From the NCBI GenBank assembly GCA_014859275.1, contig JACUUO010000014.1, positions 1 to 35,865 of the forward strand: a stretch of 35,865 nucleotides of DNA, given 5' to 3'. The position numbers and the translations under genes are program-made. Source of the DNA: Actinomycetota bacterium. GTDB lineage: Bacteria; Actinomycetota; Aquicultoria; Aquicultorales; Aquicultoraceae. The notes beneath the pieces were generated by a model, which made no database searches, was not told where the DNA came from, and was given only the letters and a program-made list of their open reading frames with translations. Shown one piece after another: positions 17,100-19,957 of the stretch (positions within the stretch are counted from its first letter, which is position 1; each line of letters opens with the position of its first letter).

Positions 17100-17349
17100 A
17101 GGTCTATTGGCTCTGCCTTGTACGTGGAACGTAGTGTATATTTGAGCCAACACTATTACATAGGGAGATCAACTCTCATCTATGGCGCGAAAGCCCTCAT
17201 GATTAGGGACTCGTAAAGTAGATAGGCGATCACCCACCTGCGTGAGAGCAGGCTTCAATATGTATTTCGTGAAACGGCAAGGCGGGGCTTTCTTGTGGAA
17301 TAGTTTCCAAAGGTAATGGCCGGGATAATAGTCCCGGCCCTTCATTTTT
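17100..17349 (+). ncRNA. Candidate structured RNA of about 240 nt, family not recognised
   Basis: Between a promoter-like sequence and an intrinsic terminator lies a stretch with no ORF but many stems: TTGGCTC/GAGCCAA (about 17107-17113 with 17144-17150) enclosing TACGT/ACGTA; CATAG..CTATG enclosing GAGA/TCTC (about 17158-17185); CCCT/AGGG; CCTGC/GCAGG (about 17237-17252); and a long-range GAAAGCCC (17189-17196) with GGGCTTTC (17285-17292). It could be a standalone regulatory RNA or a riboswitch with terminator for the SLH protein 195 bp downstream. I compared it by eye with TPP, SAM, cobalamin, c-di-GMP, ydaO, 6S, tmRNA and RNase P and found no match. Confidence 0.45.
17318..17349 (+). terminator. 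Intrinsic terminator
   Basis: GGCCGGGA (17318-17325), loop of six, TCCCGGCC (17332-17339), then CTTCATTTTT. A perfect 8-bp GC-rich stem. It ends the candidate RNA and would also stop read-through from aspS. Confidence 0.8.
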
Positions 17350-17543
17350 GATGCCCCCACCTTTACCTGAAAATATCTCGTAAAATAGACTCACATAGCG
17401 GATAATTTCTTCTTAATTAAGGAATCGATAAAGTACCGATATTATCAATTTCTAGGTTAAGGTTTTATTTAAGCGCTTAGTAAAGTAAAATCACCAATAG
17501 GTAGAGACTAATTATGCTTTCCCCTTAGCTGGAGGTAGTGTTA

Positions 17544-19355
17544 TTGAGACGAGTAGCTATAGCTGTATTGATTATCTTATTAGCAGGTGTATCGCCGGAT
17601 ATCGCATTAACGGAAGCAGAGTCTGTTGTAACATATAAAACCGATCCTCAAGGAGTCCGCCTTACCGATTACGGCTCAACATTCGGTGGACTTGGCATTC
17701 AATACAATCCGGTTAGTATAGCTAATTATGCCCTTGACCGCTGGAATAAGTATCAAGAGACAAGTGATCAGGCCTATCTAGATGCGTTTATGAACCAAGC
17801 CAAATGGCTCCATGATAATCAGCGTAACGATGGAACCTGGAAGTACACCTTCAATATTCCATCATATAATCTGGACGCTCCATGGATATCCTGTATGGCT
17901 CAAGGTCTGGGAATGCAAGTACTGAATTATGCCTACTCGATTAATCGAGAGCAATCCTATTTGGATAAGGCTAAACTCAGCATTAGACCATTTAGCCGCT
18001 CGGTTAAAGATGGAGGGGTGCGCTCTTACTTTCCCGATGGTATCCCGTGGTATGAAGAATATGCAAGCGATAGTACACCAGTATATAAAGTGCTCAATGG
18101 TTTTATGTTCGCACTTCAAGGCATAGCGAGTTACTTGATCGGCAATGGAGATGAGGATGCAACCAGGATATTAAATGAAGGGCTATCATCACTGAGCAAG
18201 AAAATAGATAGCTATGATGCCGGCTATGCATCCTATTACGATGCGGCAGGGCACGTCAACGTCAATTACAATCGGGTTCATGTTGAGCAGTTGATGTACC
18301 TTTATAAGTTAACCGGCAACGAACGGCTTAGGGAGTACGCAAGGATTTTCGATACATACGAGCCAAAGGCAGGAATAAGGGCATCATCAGTGGCCTCAGG
18401 GCAGCAGGATCCAGCAATACTGGTGGATGGGAAGTGTTTTAACGGTAGTACATGGGAAAGGGGTAGCTGGGCAGCACAGCTCCAGCTTGATCTAGGGTCA
18501 AGCAGGCCAATTGAAGGAGTGAATTTCTTCTTTGCGGATCGGATAAATGTTCCATCATCGATTCAGATGGCTGTTTCAGCAGATGGGATAAGTTGGTCTA
18601 ACATCGTAGATTCAGCTTTAAACCCGAGATGGGCTTATTACCCTTCCGATACCAAGTCCATGTATATACGGATGCATTACCTCAAGCAGCCCATAAAGGC
18701 ACGTTTCATAAGGATTATCTTAAATCAAGGTTCGTCGAAGCTGATTCGGTTGAGGGAGATACACCCAATGTATAACCAAAATGCATCTCGCTTTGATAGG
18801 GTAGGTAACTCAACTAGGTGGAACGATATCTATATTAATGACTGGTATTATCCTTATGTACGATTCTTTGAGAGCTCCGGGTTGGCGACTGGCTATGCTG
18901 ATGGCTCATTTAGACCTGGTAATCCTATAACAAGGGCAGAGCTAACCGTGTGGATAAGCCGTGCTTATGGTTTCAAACCAGTGTTACCGGGCAGCCAAGG
19001 ACCGATATTCCCGGATATAGAATCGCATTGGGCTAGGTCATATATCGAAGCTGTGGGCGACATCGGGATTGTAAGCGGCTATCCAGACGGAACATTCAAG
19101 CCAGATGCTCTGGTGACCAGAGCTGAGATCGCCAAGATTATAGTTGGTGCGGGGAAACTGCCGTTATATCCGATAGCGCAATTTCACTTTAGTGATGTAT
19201 CCATAGGATACTGGGCGATACCCTACATCGAAGCTGCCAGAGAAGCTGGCATCATCAAGGGATATGACGGATTGGTATTCAAGCCGGATGCGCATACTAC
19301 AAGGGCTGAGGCGACTGCGATTTTAGTACGGGCTCTAAATGTTCCCACACTCTAA
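17544..19355 (+). CDS. Secreted SLH-anchored protein with D-glucuronyl C5-epimerase-like and F5/8C-like domains
   Basis: 603 residues. The signal peptide is MRRVAIAVLIILLAGVSPDIALTEA. Residues about 46-270 resemble the C-terminal domain of D-glucuronyl C5-epimerase: RWNKYQ, WLHDNQRNDGTWKY, W-x-SCMAQG, WYEEY, VLNGFMFALQG, and SYYDA..NYNRVHVEQL near the end. Residues about 278-406 look like an F5/8 type C (discoidin-like) carbohydrate-binding domain. Three SLH repeats follow (about 426-476, 486-538, 546-598), each with a YPDGTF-like turn and TRAE, anchoring it to cell-wall polymer. The role would be epimerising or binding a uronic acid polymer at the surface. TTG 17544 lies 8 bp after GGAGG; GTG 17538 is too close to it. 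No glycan-synthesis genes are adjacent, so the substrate is unknown. Confidence 0.87.
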   Translation: MRRVAIAVLIILLAGVSPDIALTEAESVVTYKTDPQGVRLTDYGSTFGGLGIQYNPVSIANYALDRWNKYQETSDQAYLDAFMNQAKWLHDNQRNDGTWKYTFNIPSYNLDAPWISCMAQGLGMQVLNYAYSINREQSYLDKAKLSIRPFSRSVKDGGVRSYFPDGIPWYEEYASDSTPVYKVLNGFMFALQGIASYLIGNGDEDATRILNEGLSSLSKKIDSYDAGYASYYDAAGHVNVNYNRVHVEQLMYLYKLTGNERLREYARIFDTYEPKAGIRASSVASGQQDPAILVDGKCFNGSTWERGSWAAQLQLDLGSSRPIEGVNFFFADRINVPSSIQMAVSADGISWSNIVDSALNPRWAYYPSDTKSMYIRMHYLKQPIKARFIRIILNQGSSKLIRLREIHPMYNQNASRFDRVGNSTRWNDIYINDWYYPYVRFFESSGLATGYADGSFRPGNPITRAELTVWISRAYGFKPVLPGSQGPIFPDIESHWARSYIEAVGDIGIVSGYPDGTFKPDALVTRAEIAKIIVGAGKLPLYPIAQFHFSDVSIGYWAIPYIEAAREAGIIKGYDGLVFKPDAHTTRAEATAILVRALNVPTL

Positions 19356-19694: not shown

Positions 19695-19895
19695 ATGCAG
19701 TATCAAAATCATAACGCTGTGCATGTTTCAAACAATAGCCAATACCATGAAACGATAATTGTGCGAAGGCACGCTGCATCAAATCTATCGACGCTCGTAA
19801 CATGCAGGGACAAATGCATCATTTGCACCGTTGATTACCGCTTATGTGAATTCGGCCCTTGCCGTTACGGATGGCCGTCAGGCAATTTAAGTTAG
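19695..19895 (+). CDS. Possible small cysteine-rich protein, function unknown
   Basis: 66 residues with five cysteines in the second half (C37, C41, C44, C51, C56; CRDKCIIC then CEFGPC), spaced like a metal or Fe-S site. The stop is 17 bp before a very strong terminator and a possible promoter lies 70 bp upstream, which is what a short monocistronic gene would look like. Against it, the ribosome site is weak (only GAGTGGTG about 10 bp upstream) and I do not recognise a family. The same unit could be a non-coding RNA. Confidence 0.35.
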   Translation: MQYQNHNAVHVSNNSQYHETIIVRRHAASNLSTLVTCRDKCIICTVDYRLCEFGPCRYGWPSGNLS

Positions 19896-19912: not shown

Positions 19913-19957
19913 CGGTGGCTGAGGGTTTCTTCTATCCTCAGCCACCGGTTTTATTTT
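19913..19957 (+). terminator. Very strong intrinsic terminator
   Basis: A perfect 12-bp stem CGGTGGCTGAGG (19913-19924) with CCTCAGCCACCG (19936-19947), an 11-base loop and the tract GTTTTATTTT. It is the strongest terminator in the window and sits 550 bp after the SLH gene, so it more likely serves the unit just upstream. Confidence 0.92.

Follow-up and report, generated by a model that had tools for sequence, protein, structure and literature searches.

The window examined here, which is the whole analysed stretch of 35,865 nt, comes from a 2.83 Mb genome (98.2% complete) of an uncultured member of the class Candidatus Aquicultoria, Actinomycetota. The placement rests on a relative ranked in the same class (G016, L009), whose protein is identical to that of Candidatus Geothermocultor quzhuomuensis (L025). 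It contains a gene whose product combines, as the original prediction had stated, a signal peptide, an epimerase-like domain, an F5/8C-like domain and three SLH repeats, an arrangement borne out by Pfam and hydropathy analysis (Table 1). The frame is open from a GTG codon at 17538 to 19355, and the GGAGGT motif stands 7 nt before TTG 17544 as against 1 nt before the GTG, which makes the TTG the better start. In the 605-aa reading, Pfam places C5-epim_C at residues 97-269 (140.6 bits, cut-off 23.3, E 5.5e-41) and F5_F8_type_C at residues 280-399 (43.2 bits, cut-off 28.2, E 5.2e-11). The three SLH repeats score 126.3 bits against a cut-off of 20.8, and all of these domain scores are far beyond chance. 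The N-terminus, which reads MRRVAIAVLIILLAGVSPDIALTEA up to the predicted cut and ES after it, is strongly hydrophobic (mean Kyte-Doolittle value of 2.98 over 14 residues) and looks like a typical export signal. The 138-aa segment that contains the F5/8C domain has a pI of 9.6.

Table 1. Features of the putative surface epimerase gene and its surroundings (window coordinates)
Feature	Position	Strand	Basis or remark
6S RNA	17107-17292	+	Rfam RF00013, 101 bits
Terminator-like hairpin	17318-17339		after 6S RNA
Shine-Dalgarno GGAGGT	17531-17536	+	sequence
Surface epimerase gene	17544-19355	+	603 aa from TTG 17544; 605 aa from GTG 17538
Signal peptide (predicted)	17544-17618	+	residues 1-25; probable cut between LTEA and ES; sequence, hydropathy
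GLCE-type alpha/alpha-toroid epimerase domain	17616-18359	+	C5-epim_C core 17826-18344; Pfam, alignments, fold matches
Catalytic E172-Y173 (human GLCE E499-Y500)	18057-18062	+	alignments
Catalytic N185 (human N510)	18096-18098	+	alignments
Catalytic Y232 (human Y560)	18237-18239	+	alignments
Catalytic Y242 (human Y578)	18267-18269	+	alignments
F5/8C (CBM32-like) domain	18375-18734	+	Pfam; CBM32 fold matches
SLH repeat 1	18825-18944	+	TRAE motif intact
SLH repeat 2	19008-19133	+	TRAE motif intact
SLH repeat 3	19188-19313	+	TRAE motif intact
Small ORF	19695-19895	+	66 aa
Strong terminator-like hairpin	19913-19947		after the 66-aa ORF

The gene lies outside any polysaccharide cluster. Its neighbours are aspS, the 6S RNA and rsbW-sigF, a setting that proved uninformative as a guide to the substrate. 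In five relatives hisS-aspS-6S RNA-rsbW-sigF is kept together without the epimerase gene, which is therefore taken to be an insertion specific to this lineage, downstream of the 6S RNA. The 6S RNA itself lies directly upstream of the epimerase gene, and its position between aspS and rsbW is conserved in five relatives. Upstream of rsbW-sigF there is also a small Cys-rich ORF with a C-x2-C motif, which has no Pfam match and is conserved (59-73% identity) in all nine relatives of the family for which the rsbW-sigF region was examined (L100-L108). Four of these loci (L100, L101, L103 and L106) carry an extra ORF of 117-128 aa with a hydrophobic start between the 6S RNA and rsbW; no such ORF was seen in the window.

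The catalytic residues of human GLCE have been published as E499, Y500, N510, Y560 and Y578 (PMC13308652). All five are present in the window protein in phmmer and profile alignments to PDB 6HZZ, where the human numbering follows from an offset of 90 deduced from residue types, and the profile match to human GLCE has an E-value of 1.8e-62. Across 35 diverse bacterial sequences drawn from many phyla, no columns other than N185, G186, Y232 and Y242 are invariant, and E171 and E172 are nearly so. The position of human Y500 is occupied in the same alignment by Y, F, V, N, W, A or L, so that Y173 by itself is weak evidence.

Two AlphaFold2 models of the protein (pLDDT 82 and 87) were compared by Foldseek, and for both the eight best PDB matches were GLCE chains, human and zebrafish GLCE outranking every other fold. 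The first model matched these chains at E ~1e-10 and the second matched the human GLCE substrate complex 6i01 at E 2e-14 (rmsd 1.7 Å over 210 columns), while other sugar-epimerase toroids reached only about 1e-3 to 1e-6. An AGE-type sugar 2-epimerase as the nearest kin was rejected because AGE chains rank behind all GLCE chains. The original prediction had pointed to structure and to the active-site tyrosines as the deciding comparison; GLCE is the best fold, Y173, Y232 and Y242 occupy catalytic positions, and a general alpha/alpha toroid lacking the epimerase active site is rejected by the GLCE-first ranking together with the complete catalytic set. Alignments and models thus support the assignment of the window protein as a GLCE-type epimerase of the C5-epim_C family with a full E-Y-N-Y-Y set. 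The C-terminal part of the second model matches CBM32 modules, alginate lyase modules among them.

The likeness to human GLCE (PDB 6HZZ, 6I01, 4PXQ) consists of the same alpha/alpha toroid, at 25-27% identity over about 210 columns, and the same catalytic residues. In the 527-residue human chain the alignment is confined to the C-terminal toroid, leaving the large N-terminal part unaligned. The beta-hairpin dimerisation and beta-sandwich domains found at the N-terminus of animal GLCE are absent from the window protein alignments; the mature window protein begins about 70 residues before the Pfam core. With only the toroid aligning, the window protein is a C5-epim_C family member and not an orthologue of animal GLCE. 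Unlike the human protein, which is a Golgi enzyme, it carries F5/8C and SLH domains after the toroid and is a predicted surface enzyme. The literature surveyed, in its accessible parts, holds a single characterised bacterial GLCE-type epimerase, which is reported to rely on a GLCE-like mechanism and, compared here by description only, has no F5/8C or SLH domain in the portion of that description available.

For most of the 34 relative loci, the product is about 300-350 aa long and lacks an export signal. Polysaccharide-synthesis neighbours were found at 23 of them; 83 kb of housekeeping sequence, taken as background, contained none. The query set for this count came partly from three of those same loci. 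A single clade (support 94/91) spanning Actinomycetota and Flavobacteriaceae unites the six proteins whose C-terminus is F5/8C-like, and all six have export-like N-termini, compared with 4 of 25 others. Only the three Actinomycetota members have an F5/8C domain that passes the Pfam cut-off; the region in the three Flavobacteriaceae copies falls below it and is recognised by alignment. The sisters of the window protein, from UBA912, Yes71-11, Myroides, Flavobacterium and Flavobacteriaceae (L021, L023, L028, L037, L038), share its export signal and C-terminal F5/8C-like domain and differ in having no SLH repeats. The Flavobacteriaceae copies differ further in their lipoprotein-like signals and their location in EPS/capsule clusters, where they sit among polymerase-, glycosyltransferase-, asparagine-synthase-like and UDP-uronate genes.

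A second SLH-bearing epimerase clade (100/100) occurs in five of the six genera of the family. Its members, one of them encoded in the same genome (C97; the others at L008, L010, L012 and L016), resemble the window protein in having C5-epim_C followed by SLH, and are set apart by their separate clade, the lack of F5/8C and a change of Y500 to V. Because these paralogues group apart, SLH seems to have joined the epimerase twice. We considered the V-bearing paralogues as dead enzymes and dropped the idea, as Y500 also varies in relatives within EPS clusters; the C97 gene adjoins sugar-transferase and PMT-type genes. A third copy in the genome is unexported and lies inside an EPS cluster. A fourth PF06662 match (C224, L004) was left out of the count, being weak and in a protein that resembles a thioredoxin-domain protein. 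At L006:11496-13714 an unexported epimerase and an adjacent glycosyltransferase lie in an EPS cluster, and in Omnitrophota (L042), Symbiobacterium (L046) and Endomicrobia (L050) a close relative of this glycosyltransferase immediately follows the epimerase.

The combination had been described at the outset as one not familiar from characterised enzymes. This is only partly borne out: among the relatives surveyed, the three-part fusion of epimerase, F5/8C and SLH was seen only in the window protein, but the epimerase-F5/8C and SLH-epimerase pairings recur. A phmmer sample of 397 Actinomycetota genomes (E up to 0.01), in which a weak F5/8C could be missed, gave no SLH or F5/8C beside an epimerase domain in the new loci checked, and our literature search found no report of an SLH-anchored GLCE. 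The enzyme family is already known; the wall-anchored architecture is a new variation on it.

In Paenibacillus alvei, the arginine of the SLH TRAE motif binds the pyruvate of the wall polymer (PMC6081394). The genome studied here encodes 71 SLH repeats and a CsaB equivalog (TIGR03609, 288.5 bits, cut-off 213.1), the enzyme of SLH-ligand pyruvylation, so that wall anchoring is well supported and the protein is predicted from its sequence to be held on the cell wall via SLH. The expectation of a wall-bound epimerase is thus supported by the export signal, the three intact TRAE motifs and CsaB. The CsaB pyruvyltransferase shares a single 586-aa frame with a TagA/TarA-like ManNAc transferase, to which it is fused (L018:1447-3204, contig C296 of G000).

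From these sequence and model comparisons, the protein is probably an exported GLCE-type hexuronyl C5-epimerase acting at the polymer level outside the membrane, and post-export C5-epimerisation of a hexuronic acid in the cell's own polysaccharide would be its likeliest function. After secretion, the SLH trimer would hold the enzyme on a pyruvylated secondary cell-wall polymer made through CsaB, and the basic F5/8C domain would dock it on an acidic chain. The toroid would then remove the C5 proton from a hexuronic acid of the polysaccharide that the cell itself has exported and put it back, converting D-GlcA to L-IdoA or altering a different uronic acid in the equivalent way. This would change how flexible the chain is and how it presents its charge, much as the secreted AlgE epimerases do for alginate. 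The AlgE and AlgG alginate C5-epimerases carry out polymer-level uronate C5-epimerisation, AlgE outside the cell, with a beta-helix fold unrelated to the toroid and with mannuronate as the substrate.

Which uronic acid and which polymer are involved is the least certain part of this explanation. By homology GlcA would be the default substrate, as those members of the GLCE fold that have been characterised, bacterial and animal, act on GlcA (PMC13308652, PMC4432689). The gene contexts are mixed. In Flavobacterium L037, the exported epimerase gene overlaps the one for a UDP-ManNAc dehydrogenase (NF008286, above cut-off), which itself comes after a UDP-GlcNAc 2-epimerase gene; this makes a ManNAcA-type residue a serious alternative, although we know of no such residue as a substrate of this fold. 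UDP-uronate supply genes are present in the window's genome, among them a UDP-ManNAc dehydrogenase above the model cut-off; against this, a UDP-glucose 6-dehydrogenase-like gene, TuaD-like and below the TuaD cut-off, occurs both there and at L038, where it stands in place of the ManNAc gene. We regard it as rather unlikely that the same enzyme class, in the same place, has as its target, in place of GlcA, N-acetyl-mannosaminuronic acid or some other uronic acid of an acidic wall or EPS polymer, yielding for example L-GulNAcA.

Action on a foreign polymer, an environmental glycosaminoglycan or polyuronate modified at the surface for scavenging, is suggested by the resemblance of the CBM32-like domain to modules of polysaccharide-degrading enzymes, including alginate lyase. 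We consider it highly improbable: the heparinase II/III family (Hepar_II_III), the uronate-degrading family covered by our search, has no match in the genome, relatives adjoin biosynthetic genes, and no degradation genes were noted beside the epimerase gene. The same missing heparinase match, and a neighbour at L037 for UDP-ManNAcA and not UDP-GlcA supply, leave the heparan-type polymer once proposed as substrate without support. The location of relatives in EPS/capsule gene clusters favours the other suggestion made with it, the cell's own polysaccharide, and nothing supports a host polymer. The least probable reading is that of a catalytically dead member that works as a lectin at the surface or as a structural protein of the wall; many SLH proteins are indeed structural and Y500 is variable in the family, but the five catalytic positions are all intact in the window protein. 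Taken as a whole, we give about an even chance to the reading in which a GLCE-type epimerase fixed to the wall alters polysaccharide that the cell itself has exported, so that iduronate or a different uronic acid inverted at C5 arises outside the membrane; the residue acted on might be of the ManNAcA type.

The accessible parts of the literature surveyed describe no polymer-level uronate epimerase of the GLCE fold at a bacterial cell surface. The exported clade, with one member predicted to be wall-anchored, offers immediate opportunities to test for iduronate-like sugars in bacterial exopolysaccharides, as well as candidates for compact enzymes useful in heparin-type chemistry.
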